From NCBI RefSeq assembly GCF_015160875.1, contig NZ_CP063374.1, positions 992,001 through 1,056,000 on the forward strand: DNA of 64,000 bases, written 5' to 3'. Both the position numbers and the translations under genes were made by a program. Numbering within the stretch: position 1 is the first letter of the stretch; each line of letters begins with the position of its first letter. Positions 7,857-14,311 of the stretch are shown here, in pieces. The notes below the pieces were generated by a model that was not told where the DNA came from, did no database searches, and saw nothing but the letters and a program-made list of their open reading frames with translations. Source of the DNA: Streptomyces chromofuscus. Its GTDB lineage: Bacteria > Actinomycetota > Actinomycetes > Streptomycetales > Streptomycetaceae.

Positions 7857-8056
7857 GGGCCTATCTTTCGAGCTAGGTGGCGCTCATATGCTAACCACAC
7901 CACCGCTTCGCTCATTCACCAGGTGGACGCGTGGGGTTTCCCGGTCGGCCGGGCGTCACGACCGTCCCCGGGAACCGAGCAGCCGGCGGGCACCGCCCGT
8001 CGACCGGTCCAAAAACACGTGGCGGGCCCGACGAGGCGTCGCTACGCTCTCGCGCG

Positions 8057-8113
8057 ATGACGACTCATTCCCTTGGCAGATTGGGGGTCCCGTCCGCGTC
8101 AGGTGAGTGCTGA
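8057..8113 (+). CDS. Possible 18-codon upstream frame coupled to the next gene
   Basis: An ATG at 8057 opens an 18-residue frame (MTTHSLGRLGVPSASGEC) whose stop overlaps the start of the next gene as TGATG. TACGCT at 8043-8048 is a possible -10 box, placing transcription start close to this ATG, so the message could be leaderless with the short frame coupling ribosomes to the main gene. The family is not recognised and its expression is inference. Confidence 0.3.
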   Translation: MTTHSLGRLGVPSASGEC

Positions 8114-9369
8114 TGCTCACCGCGACCGGGAACCGGGATGCCCGCCTTTCCCTCTGGCTGCGCGTGCGCGAGTGCGCCGTGCCGCCCTCCATGATCGAGA
8201 CCGCGACCGCCCGCCGTCACGCCGGGGACTGGGCGGGAGCGTGCGCCGCCGCAGGCATCGACGTCGACCTCGACCTGCGTGGCGCGGCGCGTACGCACGG
8301 CCGGGAACTGGCGGCACGGCTGCGGGCCGATCTGCGCCGTCTGGCCCCGGATCTGCTGCGCTGGCACATGCCGAGAATCGCGCCCGACGGGGTGCTGCGC
8401 CCGGGTCTGACCATCGCCCTGGCACGGTACGACGCCGAAGGCGACGACGCGGAGCCGGCCCACCTCGTGGCCCGGACGCCGCCTGCCTGGGCGGACGCCG
8501 GGCAGCGGTTCAGCCTCGCGTTGTGGGACGGCTCCCGGTCCGAAGCCGGGGCCCGCCGTCACCCGCACCCGCATCCCAGCCGACGCTTCCGCCTCGACCT
8601 GCACCGTCATCTCTGGGACGCGCACAGGGCGGAGGAGCTGCGGACGCGGTCGGGGGCCGACCGGCCGCCGGGCGACGGCTGTCGCGCCGAGGAACCGGAT
8701 CTTCGCGGGCACGGCTGTGCCGTCGACCGGTGGGCGGCCGAGGCCGGCATCGTGCTCCGGGCCGAGGGGCGGTCCGCCGGTTCCGTCGCCGTGCGGCTCG
8801 GGACACGGCGACGGCTGGTCCTCGACCACGACGCGGCGGCGCCGGCCCTGCGGATCTCGGCGCCCTCCTCGGGCGGTGACACCTCCGCGCTGCCGGTCCT
8901 CCCCGACGCGGCGACCTGGGTGCCGCCCGACCTGGAGCTGGTCCGCGCCGGTCTGACCGAGGCGCACCAGTTGCATCCGCTGGTCGCCGCGGCGTTGCTG
9001 CCGGACCACCCGCCGCTCCGTCCGTCCCCTCCCCTGCCGCCCGCAGGCTCGCCGGGGCAGCCGCGGCTCGTGCAGTGCCGAGGGGCTCAGCACCGTATCG
9101 GCCTGGTCGACGGCGAGCCGACCCCGCTGGACCACGACCCGGCCGAGATCCGCCGCGAGGAACTGCTCGCCGAGCTGACCGGAACTCCCCTGCCCTGCCT
9201 GCAGGCCGTCGACGCGGCGCGCGAGGAACGGGAGGCGGCCGCTCGACAGCGGATCACCTACGGCCTGTACAGGGCGGGCCTGTTCGGCCCCGGACCCGGC
9301 GACCTCCGCCCGGGTCGGCGCCGTCCCCGGGACCACCGCACGCACCCGCGCCACGCGACGCGCCCCTGA
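8113..9369 (+). CDS. Hypothetical protein, first gene of MoxR/VWA module
   Basis: 418 residues, no signal peptide or membrane segment, no domain I recognise. It is rich in Arg, Ala, Pro and His (RRHPHPHPSRR near the middle) and ends in a basic, disordered tail. Two patches look folded: LRADLRRLAPDLLRWHMPRIAPDG near residue 80 and a C-terminal helix around AREEREAAARQRITYGLYRAG. The ATG at 8113 is preferred over the GTG at 8107 because AGGTGA ends six bases upstream. It precedes an AAA+ ATPase gene by 79 bp on the same strand; MoxR genes are often accompanied by such poorly conserved partners, so a role as substrate, adaptor or regulator of the module is an inference from context only. Confidence 0.7.
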   Translation: MLTATGNRDARLSLWLRVRECAVPPSMIETATARRHAGDWAGACAAAGIDVDLDLRGAARTHGRELAARLRADLRRLAPDLLRWHMPRIAPDGVLRPGLTIALARYDAEGDDAEPAHLVARTPPAWADAGQRFSLALWDGSRSEAGARRHPHPHPSRRFRLDLHRHLWDAHRAEELRTRSGADRPPGDGCRAEEPDLRGHGCAVDRWAAEAGIVLRAEGRSAGSVAVRLGTRRRLVLDHDAAAPALRISAPSSGGDTSALPVLPDAATWVPPDLELVRAGLTEAHQLHPLVAAALLPDHPPLRPSPPLPPAGSPGQPRLVQCRGAQHRIGLVDGEPTPLDHDPAEIRREELLAELTGTPLPCLQAVDAAREEREAAARQRITYGLYRAGLFGPGPGDLRPGRRRPRDHRTHPRHATRP

Positions 9370-9448
9370 CCACGCCCACCGGCCCGTCGGCCCGCCCCCC
9401 TCGCTCCTCTCCCAGCTTCAGCTCACTACGACCCGAAGGTGACCAACC

Positions 9449-10723
9449 ATGCCCACGCACACCCCGTCCCGCTCGACACCGTCCTCCCGACCGGCCGCCG
9501 CCGAGGCGCATCCCTCCCCACTGGTGGTGGCCGACGCGCTGTCGACCCTCCTGCGCACCACCGCCACCGAACCCCGCACCGACCCCCAACTGGAAGCCCT
9601 GACCCTGGCCGTCGCCGCCGACCTTCCCGTGCTCCTGTGGGGCGAGCCGGGCATCGGCAAGACCGCGGCCCTCACCCAGCTCGCCGCGACCCTGGACCTT
9701 CCGCTGACCACGGTCGTCGCCAGCGTCCACGAGCCGTCCGACTTCTCCGGGCTGCCCGTCGTCGGGGACGATCCCGCCGCGCAGGGCGTCCCGATGGCCC
9801 CGCCGGACTGGGCGGTGCGCCTCGTACGGGCCGGCCGCGGGCTGCTGTTCCTCGACGAGTTGTCCACCGCGGCACCCGCCGTGCAGGCCGCCCTGCTCCG
9901 CCTGGTCCTCGAACGACGGGTCGGCGCCCTGCGGTTGCCGCCGGACGTGCGCGTCGTGGCGGCCGCCAATCCGCCATCCTCGGCGGCCGACGGCTGGGAG
10001 CTGAGCCCGCCGCTGGCCAACCGGTTCGTCCATCTCCAGTGGACCCACGACCACGAGGTCGTCGTACGCGGCCTGGGTGGGACATGGCCCCGGGCGACAC
10101 TGCCCCGGCTCGACCCGGAGAAGCTGCCGGAGGCCGTGGACTTCGCCCGCCGCGCGGTGTGCGGCCTGCTCAGCGCACGTCCGAAGCTCGTGCACCAGCT
10201 GCCCAGCACCGAGACACGCCGGGGTGGGGCCTGGCCGTCGCCCCGGAGCTGGGAGACGGCCCTGCGCCTGATCGCCTTCGCGACCGCGGCCAGTACCTCC
10301 CGGGAGGTGCTGTCCCTGCTCGTCAGGGGCGCCGTCGGCGACGGTCCGGGGCTGGAGCTGCTGGCGAGCCTGGACCGGATGGACCTGCCCGATCCCGAGG
10401 ACCTCCTCGCCGACCCGGCGGGCGCCGTGCTGCCCGAGCGGGGGGACCTGCGCCAGGCCGTCCTCGACGGCGTGGTCGCGGCGGTCCGCAGGCACCCGGA
10501 CAGGTCCCGCTGGGACGCGGCGTGGGCGCTCCTGGTGCGGGCGGTGGAGACCGGGGCTCCGGACCTGGTGGTCGTCCCCGCGACCACCCTCGCCACGCTG
10601 CGCCGGGAGGACTGGGACGTGCCCGCATCGATCGAGCGGCTCGCCGGAGTTGTCTCCCTGTCCCGGCGCGCGGACCGGGCCGCCGCCCGGGTGGCCGCCG
10701 TCCCCGCGCAGGCCGGCCGATGA
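9449..10723 (+). CDS. MoxR-type AAA+ ATPase
   Basis: 424 residues. Walker A GEPGIGKT (about 65-72), Walker B LLFLDEL (about 132-138), sensor 1 VVAAANP and the arginine-finger region PPLANRFVHLQW identify a AAA+ module of the MoxR/RavA branch, which works as a hexameric chaperone-like ATPase together with VWA-domain proteins. The C-terminal third is helical and less conserved. The start at 9449 follows AAGGTGA. The stop overlaps the start of the next gene (ATGA at 10720-10723), so the ATPase and the metallopeptidase/VWA protein are translated together, strongly implying a physical complex. The client is unknown. Confidence 0.88.
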   Translation: MPTHTPSRSTPSSRPAAAEAHPSPLVVADALSTLLRTTATEPRTDPQLEALTLAVAADLPVLLWGEPGIGKTAALTQLAATLDLPLTTVVASVHEPSDFSGLPVVGDDPAAQGVPMAPPDWAVRLVRAGRGLLFLDELSTAAPAVQAALLRLVLERRVGALRLPPDVRVVAAANPPSSAADGWELSPPLANRFVHLQWTHDHEVVVRGLGGTWPRATLPRLDPEKLPEAVDFARRAVCGLLSARPKLVHQLPSTETRRGGAWPSPRSWETALRLIAFATAASTSREVLSLLVRGAVGDGPGLELLASLDRMDLPDPEDLLADPAGAVLPERGDLRQAVLDGVVAAVRRHPDRSRWDAAWALLVRAVETGAPDLVVVPATTLATLRREDWDVPASIERLAGVVSLSRRADRAAARVAAVPAQAGR

Positions 10724-11985
10724 ACCCGTCCGCACCGGGGACGCTGGACCTCGACAAGCTGTTCGCCGCCCGGCTCCAGGCCGCCCGGGCCCGCCCCTAC
10801 CTGGCGACCGCGCTGTTCGCCCTGCACCCGGTGGCGTCGCGGCAGGTGTCGACGATGGCCGTCGACCCGCACTGGCGGTGCTACGTCTCGCCGGCGTTCG
10901 TGGACCGGACCCCGGTCGAGGAACTGGCGGGCGTGTGGGTGCACGAGGTGTCGCACCTGCTGCGCGACCACCACGGACGCAGCGACCGCGTCGCGCGCGA
11001 ACGCGGGCTGAGCGGCCCCGGGGAACGGCTGCGGATGAACATCGCCGCTGACCTCGAGATCAACGACGACGTGTTCGGCGACGGACTGGTCCGCCCCGAG
11101 GGCGCGGTCGAGCCGCGGTCCCTGATGCTGCCCGAGGGGCAGCTCTTGGAGGACTACCTGCGTCAGTTCCGGCTCGGGCCGCGCCTGCAGCACCTCGCCT
11201 GGCTGGACTGCGGCAGCGGCGCCGACGGACTCGAACGTGCCTGGGACCTGGGACCCGACGGCGCGCACGGCCTCAGCGCGCAGGAGCGGGACGCGGTGCG
11301 GTTCCGGGTGGCCCAGGGCATCAACGGCCGCCCGGGCAGCGCCCCGCGGGGATGGCGGCGGTGGGCGGAGGAGGCCTTCCAACCGCCGCAGCCCTGGCGT
11401 GAGTTGCTGGGCGCGGCGGTGCGCTCGGCCACCTCCGGCCCGGGCGTCGGCGAGGACTACACCTACGGCCGTCCGGCGCGGCGCTCGGCCGGCGTGCCCG
11501 GCGCCGTGCTGCCGAGCCTGCGCCGCAGGCCGCCGCGCGTGTGCGTGGTCATCGACACCTCCGCCTCGGTCAGCGACGCCGAGTTGGGCGGCGCGCTCCG
11601 CGAGGTGGCGGCGATCACCCGAGCCGTGGGCGGGCGGCGGGACCTGATCACCGTGCTCTCGTGCGACGCGGCCGCCCGGTTCGTGGCCCCGCTGTGCCGC
11701 GACGAGGGGATCGGGCTGGTGGGCGGCGGCGGGACGGATCTGCGCACGGGCTTCGCCAAGGCGCTGCGGACCCGGCCCCGCCCGGACGCCCTCGTGGTCC
11801 TGACCGACGGCCGGACGCCCTGGCCGAGCACGCGGCCACCGTGCCGGACGGTGGTGGGTCTCTTCCCCCGGCAGCACACGTCCCGGCCGGGGGACGACGA
11901 GGACGATCCCGAGTACGTCCCGGACTCACCGCCGGAGTGGGCCCGGGTGGTGGTCATCGGGTCGCCGGCACCCGGCGCTCGGTGA
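10720..11985 (+). CDS. HExxH metallopeptidase-like protein with C-terminal VWA domain (DUF2201 type)
   Basis: 421 residues, cytoplasmic. The N-terminal half has a zinc-peptidase-like HEVSH at about 75-79 followed by LRDHHGRSD. The C-terminal domain is a VWA-like fold with a complete metal-ion-dependent adhesion site: DTSAS (about 279-283), a threonine in GGGGTDLRTGF (about 336-346) and an aspartate in LVVLTDGRTPW (about 358-368). Proteins of this build pair with MoxR ATPases. The start codon overlaps the ATPase stop. VWA partners usually bind the client through the metal site while the ATPase remodels it; whether the HExxH site is a working protease is untested. A hairpin follows the gene. 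Confidence 0.85.
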   Translation: MNPSAPGTLDLDKLFAARLQAARARPYLATALFALHPVASRQVSTMAVDPHWRCYVSPAFVDRTPVEELAGVWVHEVSHLLRDHHGRSDRVARERGLSGPGERLRMNIAADLEINDDVFGDGLVRPEGAVEPRSLMLPEGQLLEDYLRQFRLGPRLQHLAWLDCGSGADGLERAWDLGPDGAHGLSAQERDAVRFRVAQGINGRPGSAPRGWRRWAEEAFQPPQPWRELLGAAVRSATSGPGVGEDYTYGRPARRSAGVPGAVLPSLRRRPPRVCVVIDTSASVSDAELGGALREVAAITRAVGGRRDLITVLSCDAAARFVAPLCRDEGIGLVGGGGTDLRTGFAKALRTRPRPDALVVLTDGRTPWPSTRPPCRTVVGLFPRQHTSRPGDDEDDPEYVPDSPPEWARVVVIGSPAPGAR

Positions 11986-12007: not shown

Positions 12008-12031
12008 GCGCCCCGGGGAAGCACGGGGCGC
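12008..12031 (+). terminator. Hairpin after the MoxR/VWA module
   Basis: GCGCCCCG (12008-12015) and CGGGGCGC (12024-12031) form a perfect eight-base stem with an eight-base loop, 22 bases after the stop codon of the VWA gene. Confidence 0.6.
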
Positions 12032-12111: not shown

Positions 12112-13316
12112 TGCCGCCAATAAACAAAACCCGTTCGCACAACGCCGTGCCGGGCAACGACCATGGACTCACCCGCCTCCGCATCGCCCTGACCACCTTC
12201 TTCGCCCTCGACGGCTTCGTCTTCGCCGGCTGGGTCGTCCGCATCCCCGCCATCAAGGAACAGACCGGCGCCTCCGCCAGCACCCTCGGGCTCGCCCTGC
12301 TCTGCGTCTCCGCCGGCGCGGTGGTCACGATGATGCTCACCGGACGCCTGTGCCGTCGCTTCGGCAGCCACCCGGTGACCGTGGTCTGCGCCGTCCTGCT
12401 CTCCCTCACCGTCGCCCTGCCGCCGCTCACCCACTCCGTGACCGCCCTCGGCGCCGTACTGCTGCTCTTCGGCGCGGCCTACGGCGGCATCAACGTCGCC
12501 TTCAACAGCGCCGCCGTCGATCTCGTCACCGCCCTGCGGCGACCGGTGATGCCCAGCTTCCACGCCGCCTTCAGCCTCGGCGGCATGGTCGGCGCCGGCC
12601 TCGGCGCACTGGTCGCAGGGTCCCTCTCCCCCACCCGGCACCTGCTCGGGCTCACCCTCGTCGGCCTGCTGGTCACCGCCCTGGCGGGACCGACGCTGCT
12701 GCGCCGGAAACCGCCGTCGCCGCCGGAACGGATGCCGTCCGACGTGCGGGCTCCCCGTCGGACCGGTGCGCGGACCCGCGGCCTCGTGCTCGTCTTCGGC
12801 CTGATCGCGCTCTGCACGGCCTACGGCGAAGGCGCCTTGGCCGACTGGGGCGCCCTGCACCTGGAGCAGGACCTGCACGCCTCGCCCGGGGTGGCGGCCG
12901 TCGGCTACTCCTGCTTCGCCCTCGCCATGACGGTGGGCCGGCTCACCGGGACCGCGCTGCTCGAACGCCTCGGCCGCACCCGCACCGTGATCGCCGGCGG
13001 CACGACCGCGGCGGCCGGGATGCTGGTCGGCTCGCTCGCGAACTCCCTGTGGGCCGCGCTCCTCGGCTTCGCGGTCGCCGGGCTCGGTCTGGCCAACCTC
13101 TTCCCGGTGGCCGTCGAACGGGCGGGCGCGCTCGCCGGCCCGAGCGGCGTCGCCACGGCGTCGACACTCGGGTACGGCGGCATGCTGCTCGGGCCGCCCG
13201 CCATCGGGTTCATGGCCGACTGGTTCTCACTGCCGACCGCGCTGACGAGCGTGGCGGTACTGGCGGGCATCGCCGCCGTGATCGGGTTCGCCACGCGTGG
13301 GGTGGCCGAGCGCTGA
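12111..13316 (+). CDS. MFS transporter
   Basis: 401 residues with about twelve hydrophobic helices. The N-terminal half reads ALTTFFALDGFVFAGWVVRIPAIKEQTG and has the MFS loop 2-3 pattern as GRLCRRFGSHPV; the second half repeats it as TGTALLERLGRTRTV. The arrangement resembles the YbjJ/sugar-efflux type of MFS proteins, but substrates of these are mostly unknown. The protein sits in the cytoplasmic membrane. The GTG at 12111 is taken as start because of the promoter placed directly before it; GTG at 12147 (MPGNDHG) is an alternative. No neighbouring gene suggests the cargo. Confidence 0.82.
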   Translation: MPPINKTRSHNAVPGNDHGLTRLRIALTTFFALDGFVFAGWVVRIPAIKEQTGASASTLGLALLCVSAGAVVTMMLTGRLCRRFGSHPVTVVCAVLLSLTVALPPLTHSVTALGAVLLLFGAAYGGINVAFNSAAVDLVTALRRPVMPSFHAAFSLGGMVGAGLGALVAGSLSPTRHLLGLTLVGLLVTALAGPTLLRRKPPSPPERMPSDVRAPRRTGARTRGLVLVFGLIALCTAYGEGALADWGALHLEQDLHASPGVAAVGYSCFALAMTVGRLTGTALLERLGRTRTVIAGGTTAAAGMLVGSLANSLWAALLGFAVAGLGLANLFPVAVERAGALAGPSGVATASTLGYGGMLLGPPAIGFMADWFSLPTALTSVAVLAGIAAVIGFATRGVAER

Positions 13317-13464
13317 TACGTCGAGGAGGGCGGGGCCGAGACGTCGACCGCCCGGCAGGGCACCCGGGGCGCAGCGACGCGTACGTGAATCCGCCGAATT
13401 GCACCAGGTGGCACAGCAAAAAACGCTCCCCCTCGACCGCGCTCCATGCGGCAGACTCACCCGC

Positions 13465-14232
13465 ATGGAGACCGCCGACTTCATCAACACCCTCGACCGG
13501 GAAGGCCGGTTGCTCGCCGCGGCCGCCGCCGAGGCCGGGACCGACGCCAAGGTGCCGACCTGCCCGGACTGGCAGGTCAGTGACCTGCTGCGGCACACGG
13601 GCATGGTGCACCGCTGGGCGACCGCCTTCGTCGCCGAGGCGCGGACCTCGTACCAGCCCGGAGAGGAACTGCCCGACCTCGACGACGACGACCTGCTGAG
13701 CTGGTACCGGGAGGCGCACCGCCGGCTCGTGGACACCCTCACCACCGCGCCGCCCGACGTGCAGTGCTGGCAGGTGCTGCCCGCCCCGTCCCCGCTCCTT
13801 TGCTGGGCGCGGCGGCAGGCGCACGAGACAACGGTGCACCGCGTCGACGCCGAGGCGGCGCGCGGCGGTTCACTCACGGAGATCGCCCGCGACGTCGCCC
13901 TGGACGGCATCGACGAACTGCTGCGCGGCTTCCACGCGCGCCGTAAGAGCGCTGTACGCACCGAGGAACCGAGGGTGCTGCGGGTACGGGTGACCGACGG
14001 CGGCGAGGTGGACGACGCCGGCGACGCGGACGACGCGGTGTGGACCGTACGACTGTCCGCGGAACCGCCCGTGACCGAGCGGAACGACGCCGGTTCCGCC
14101 GACTGCGAGCTCAGCGGACCGGCCGTACGGCTCTATCTCTCGCTGTGGAACCGGCTGCCGTTCCCCGAGGTCGTCGGGGACGGCGCGCTGGCCGACCTGT
14201 GGCGGGAGAAGTCCGGGATCGTCTGGAGCTGA
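13465..14232 (+). CDS. Maleylpyruvate isomerase-family (mycothiol-dependent type) protein
   Basis: 255 residues. The N-terminal DinB-like four-helix domain begins ADFINTLDREGRLLAAAAAEAG and has the typical VPTCPDWQVSDLLRHTGMVHRW; the metal-site histidines are probably those in the RHTGMVHRW and QAHETTVHRVDAEAA segments. The C-terminal half resembles the SCP2-like part (LYLSLWNRLPF). Proteins of this family use mycothiol, the actinobacterial thiol, in isomerisation or transfer reactions, but most are uncharacterised. The ATG at 13465 was chosen because homologous sequence begins there; a longer frame from 13297 would overlap the previous gene. No partner gene is adjacent. Confidence 0.82.
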   Translation: METADFINTLDREGRLLAAAAAEAGTDAKVPTCPDWQVSDLLRHTGMVHRWATAFVAEARTSYQPGEELPDLDDDDLLSWYREAHRRLVDTLTTAPPDVQCWQVLPAPSPLLCWARRQAHETTVHRVDAEAARGGSLTEIARDVALDGIDELLRGFHARRKSAVRTEEPRVLRVRVTDGGEVDDAGDADDAVWTVRLSAEPPVTERNDAGSADCELSGPAVRLYLSLWNRLPFPEVVGDGALADLWREKSGIVWS

Positions 14233-14311
14233 GCGCCGGCGGCGTGACCGCCACCCGGCACGGCGCGCCGCCGTGAGCGAGGTCAGCCGCCGCTGGTCGC
14301 GGGCGCCCGGC

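Follow-up and report, generated by a model that had tools for sequence, protein, structure and literature searches.

The C-terminal third of gene 1 in a three-gene unit of Streptomyces chromofuscus carries a previously unnamed C-H-H-C module of about 50 residues, and among the actinobacteria sampled this module is confined to genomes that also encode the MoxR-DUF2201 pair found beside it here. The module is the new part of the unit; the pair formed by genes 2 and 3 is already known. Given the linkage of the three genes, the conservation of their motifs and the restricted distribution of the module, we consider it reasonably probable that the unit specifies an ATP-driven remodelling machine together with a dedicated client or adaptor, which would dock onto the machine via the module. 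The window analysed, a stretch of 64,000 nucleotides, lies within a 7.48 Mb chromosome, and the features of the unit are collected in Table 1.

Table 1. Coordinates of the three-gene unit and its features, numbered from the first letter of the window.
Feature	Positions	Strand	Description	Basis or content
Promoter-like region	8019..8048	+	-10 TACGCT (8043-8048); weak -35-like GTGGCG (8019-8024)	Read from sequence
Leader with 18-codon upstream ORF MTTHSLGRLGVPSASGEC*	8057..8113	+	Stop and gene-1 start overlap as TGATG	
Gene 1	8113..9369	+	Third component, 418 aa	C-H-H-C module preceded by an N-terminal region and followed by a shortened C-terminal tail
C-H-H-C module of gene 1	9061..9207	+	C322, H327, H341, E349, C362 (418-aa numbering)	
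Gene 2	9449..10723	+	MoxR/midasin-type AAA+ ATPase, 424 aa	AAA_5, PHROG 1297 and midasin matches
Gene 3	10720..11985	+	DUF2201 protein, zincin-like domain and VWA, 421 aa	PF13203, PF09967
HEVSH motif of gene 3	10942..10956	+	H75-H79	HE..H in 79/79 relatives
VWA domain of gene 3	11539..11859	+	MIDAS D279-S281-S283, T339, D363	
Inverted repeat GCGCCCCG/CGGGGCGC	12008..12031	.	3' of gene 3	Read from sequence

Profile searches agree with the protein identities proposed in the first-pass annotation. The first protein, described there as unrecognised, matches no Pfam family at E<=1, no NCBIfam family and no PADLOC model. Gene 2, with its GEPGIGKT and LLFLDEL motifs, is a MoxR-type AAA+ ATPase by its match to AAA_5 (E 1.4e-9; 38.5 bits, cut-off 22). 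Its match to AAA_3 is borderline (25.9 bits versus a cut-off of 27), and at 17.7 bits it falls below the bpMoxR cut-off of 27 for the MoxR-vWA-beta-propeller class. The closest PDB sequence is midasin (E 2e-13), PHROG 1297 is matched at E 1.6e-49, and GEPGIGK, DE, N174 and R192 are invariant across both clades aligned. Gene 3, with its HEVSH motif, combines the two domains that define a DUF2201 protein, the putative metallopeptidase domain PF13203 (E 5e-25; 89.1 bits, cut-off 23.2) and the VWA-like domain PF09967 (E 6e-13; 49.4 bits, cut-off 26.4). Inspection of the latter reveals a complete MIDAS of the form DTSAS...T...D, whose five positions do not vary when the two clades are aligned; DTSxS is present in 79/79 relatives. 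A second, divergent MoxR and DUF2201 pair lies at 6.81 Mb of the same genome (L058, 8779-11684), followed by a DnaK-like gene (12389-14254).

The reported ATGA overlap between genes 2 and 3 is found at 10720-10723, with most relatives showing the same -4 spacing; in some loci of a second Streptomyces clade all three genes overlap. Two boundaries of the unit required revision. Position 8057, given earlier as the start of the unit, is the ATG of the short upstream ORF, while gene 1 itself begins at 8113. The hairpin said to close the unit was not confirmed, in that folding around 12008-12031 is no better than that of shuffled sequences (z -1.1) and a site scan returned no terminator-like site 3' of gene 3.

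Comparison of 80 loci from named organisms, which include Kitasatospora, Embleya, Nocardia, Micromonospora and Acrocarpospora, indicates that the three genes belong together. The trio occurs in the same order and on the same strand in all 79 complete loci, the remaining locus being cut by a contig end. Within the genus, 82 of 150 genomes have gene 1 and 91 have gene 3, which is present in 81 of the 82 that carry gene 1. The ten genomes that have gene 3 alone appear to represent decay, contig ends or a divergent, truncated locus, one of them being assigned from its position at a contig edge. The first-pass annotation had let its grouping stand or fall on the co-occurrence of gene 1 with the pair, and its proposal that the three proteins act jointly is well supported by both co-occurrence and gene order; contact between the proteins is a further step that we infer.

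Gene 1 is shorter in the window (418 residues, or 420 from an upstream GTG) than in the 80 relatives, where it spans 455-518 residues. Missing from it is an ankyrin-like segment, about 45 residues long, that is present in L088 and the other clade-A sequences aligned; in the second Streptomyces clade, gene 1 is longer and has ankyrin repeats. The C-H-H-C module is intact in the window copy. It consists of a cysteine, four residues and a histidine, followed by G, DH, E and a final cysteine, and the equivalents of the five residues given in Table 1 are invariant across 81 clade-A sequences. The C, H, H and C positions are likewise kept in 80/80 close relatives and 20/20 distant copies. An AlphaFold2 model of a clade-A homologue of gene 1 has a mean pLDDT of 73, falling to about 65-72 across the module, and comparison of this model with the PDB returned no match at E<=0.001 by Foldseek and none at Z>=5 by VIA-align. 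We do not claim a new fold for gene 1, as the Foldseek ranks offered little to test. An internal duplication was also considered and dropped (profile comparison P 0.05 over 27 columns).

The distribution of the module links it to the pair beyond Streptomyces. The gene-1 profile yields weak matches in three distant actinobacteria, G155, G170 and G292. In G155 and G292, one such match lies directly 3' of the DUF2201 gene found there; the domain profile places one at the same position in G170, such that in all three genomes a module gene follows directly downstream of the pair, unlike in the Streptomyces trio. Of the 296 actinobacterial genomes searched, 14 have the module at E <=1e-5, and each of these is among the 30 with PF13203. 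Counting genomes, the probability of this co-restriction is 4e-16, which overstates the evidence since the 14 genomes represent only about four lineages. Consistent with the same pattern, G184, from the same family as G170, has neither the module nor PF13203, and among 24 genomes of the class of G292 the module is confined to G292 itself; the scans of G170's order and class comprised three genomes. Within the genus, the one genome whose gene-1 homologue is not accompanied by gene 3 retains the rest of the protein with a shortened, eroded module. What had been an unknown first partner can thus be described more sharply, as a protein bearing a module that accompanies the pair.

Strong module matches number 7-8 in G155, 11 in G170 and 2 in G292; they are mostly scattered, and the non-module parts of the proteins that carry them differ. 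In L199 and L205 the module is fused to DUF2087 (E 1e-21 to 1e-23). These patterns suggest that the module may serve as a docking tag for the MoxR-DUF2201 machine. Against docking, most module-bearing genes in the distant genomes do not adjoin the core. Since some DUF2201/MoxR pairs (L182-L185) have no detectable module nearby, not every pair in the family depends on it.

In the mechanism that we favor, gene 2 would assemble into a MoxR/midasin-type AAA+ ring, and gene 3, with its zincin-like N-terminal domain, would be the VWA co-factor of that ring. Gene 1 would dock onto gene 3 through the C-H-H-C module, which is probably a small metal-stabilised fold, offering E349 or the Asp of the DH motif as a ligand to the VWA MIDAS. 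The acidic residue of the module is conserved; its position at the MIDAS is a proposal. ATP hydrolysis would then drive remodelling of gene 1 or of a partner bound to it, and in Streptomyces the zincin domain may additionally cut either one. In other actinobacteria, several module-carrying proteins would be served by one core. A bolder form of this idea, which we put forward tentatively and regard as doubtful, is that the module is a portable tag bound by the MIDAS, such that one machine remodels a set of otherwise different proteins, as many as about eleven in a single genome, the DUF2087 fusions included.

The proposed contact has a precedent in CbbO, where the MIDAS of the VWA domain binds a surface carboxylate of Rubisco and CbbQ supplies the force (PMC4660213); NorQ-NorD appears similar (PMC13036017). 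Both systems share with the present unit a MoxR ring and a MIDAS-bearing VWA protein acting on a specific partner. They differ in the N-terminal domain of the VWA protein and in that the partner is here encoded in the unit itself, with a dedicated module.

A closer likeness in domain content is found in group 2.2 jumbo phages, where a MoxR protein and a metallopeptidase-vWA partner have been proposed to function in virion assembly (PMC7824862). Here too, the MoxR AAA+ gene adjoins one for a VWA protein whose N-terminal domain is of the metallopeptidase kind, and the phage families PHROG 1297 and 1314 are both matched, although identity is near 27%. The match of gene 3 to PHROG 1314 is strong (E 1.2e-36), yet that family is labelled an HNH endonuclease, a label that looks wrong. 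No relatives of gene 1 were found in any phage record; in phage MinM2 (L177, 605-5062) a DUF3150 gene lies between the MoxR and VWA-like genes.

The phage comparison bears on whether the unit is instead a regulated protease, in which the machine would deliver gene 1, or its binding partners, to be cut by the zincin domain of gene 3. The same fusion is proposed to process virion proteins in phages (PMC7824862), and HExxH, H84 and D111 are invariant in the Streptomyces members. Conservation of the HExxH site, which the first-pass annotation had made a test of its proposal, holds in 79/79 close relatives and also throughout the second Streptomyces clade. The model of the gene-3 N-terminal domain has BlaR1, selecase and abylysin among its structural neighbours, the top rows being nearly all zinc peptidases, at Z scores of 5-6 that, being below 8, settle no fold and show no function; the VWA half of the model is too poor to be read (mean pLDDT 56). 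In contrast, four distant members, three of them from genomes with the module, carry HHxxH instead of HExxH. These proteins retain both zinc histidines and the conserved Asp further on but lack the catalytic Glu, so that they might coordinate metal with no conventional catalytic base. Because of this substitution, the general function of gene 3 is more likely to be binding or remodelling than proteolysis. That is to say, the zinc-dependent proteolysis suggested earlier is weakened as a general activity, whereas cleavage by gene 3 in Streptomyces is possible, and we regard the protease account of the whole unit as rather unlikely.

A role for the unit in biological conflict, such as anti-phage defence, is suggested by the MoxR-vWA ternary systems, which include VMAP, iSTAND, FtsH and beta-propeller components and are frequent in multicellular actinobacteria (PMC7159879). 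The layout is similar, with MoxR, VWA and a third conserved component in one unit (PMC7159879). The patchy occurrence in the genus (82/150) points the same way, as do the signs that the unit is mobile and decays as one block. No flanking gene is common to more than about 6 of the 80 loci, the window's own flanks are common to none, and the unit resides on Streptomyces linear plasmids in three records examined. In two genomes only fragments of the unit remain, and in another, about 38 kb separates gene 1 from the other two genes, still paired on the opposite strand, as by inversion. Transfer between genera was considered and set aside, as non-Streptomyces members are placed mixed in a tree whose backbone is unsupported.

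Several properties of the unit nonetheless separate it from the published ternary systems, and a conflict role is improbable. Gene 1 has no Pfam match, the bpMoxR score of gene 2 falls short of the cut-off, and gene 3 joins its VWA domain to a zincin domain and has no variable effector; no effector domain was recognised in the unit. Genes 1 and 3 have no PADLOC model, and gene 3 evolves slowly (median divergence 0.18). The immediate neighbours are ordinary metabolic genes, among which the defence-model hits look generic. A defence-island setting was likewise rejected, as a scan of the 127 nearest neighbours gave few, scattered and mostly generic-looking matches to defence models. Finally, movement and decay as a block, together with the one genome that has a gene-1 homologue without the pair, might make gene 1 an independent accessory merely travelling with a chaperone pair, a reading that is very unlikely given that the module is again found next to the pair in three distant genomes whose gene order differs, and is eroded in the sole genome without the core.

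The leader of gene 1 is conserved as well. Mean DNA identity is 0.80-0.98 over the last 60 nt before gene 1 versus about 0.4 in the upstream flank, and reaches 0.98 in the final 20 nt versus 0.41 further upstream. An in-frame stop overlaps the gene-1 ATG in 80/80 loci, and an ATG stands 18 codons before that stop in 70/80. Within the upstream ORF, third codon positions are fixed and second positions variable, while the frame and the ATG are kept. This pattern places selection on the nucleic acid rather than on a peptide. No Rfam family matched the leader, and covariation gave a hairpin no support, in that no pair changed on both sides. At the same distance as the promoter-like region, relatives have cTGrCAg, 17 nt and TAnnnT; a consensus scan found no sigma-70 site at 8019-8048. 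Because the -10-like hexamer stands just 5' of the upstream ATG, the transcript may be leaderless.

Little is settled about how MoxR-VWA machines select the proteins on which they act. If the remodelling machine with its docking module is as we propose, and the module tags many proteins, target choice would be predictable from sequence and testable by single substitutions. It would also provide functions for three families that are now annotated as hypothetical, MoxR-like or VWA-like.
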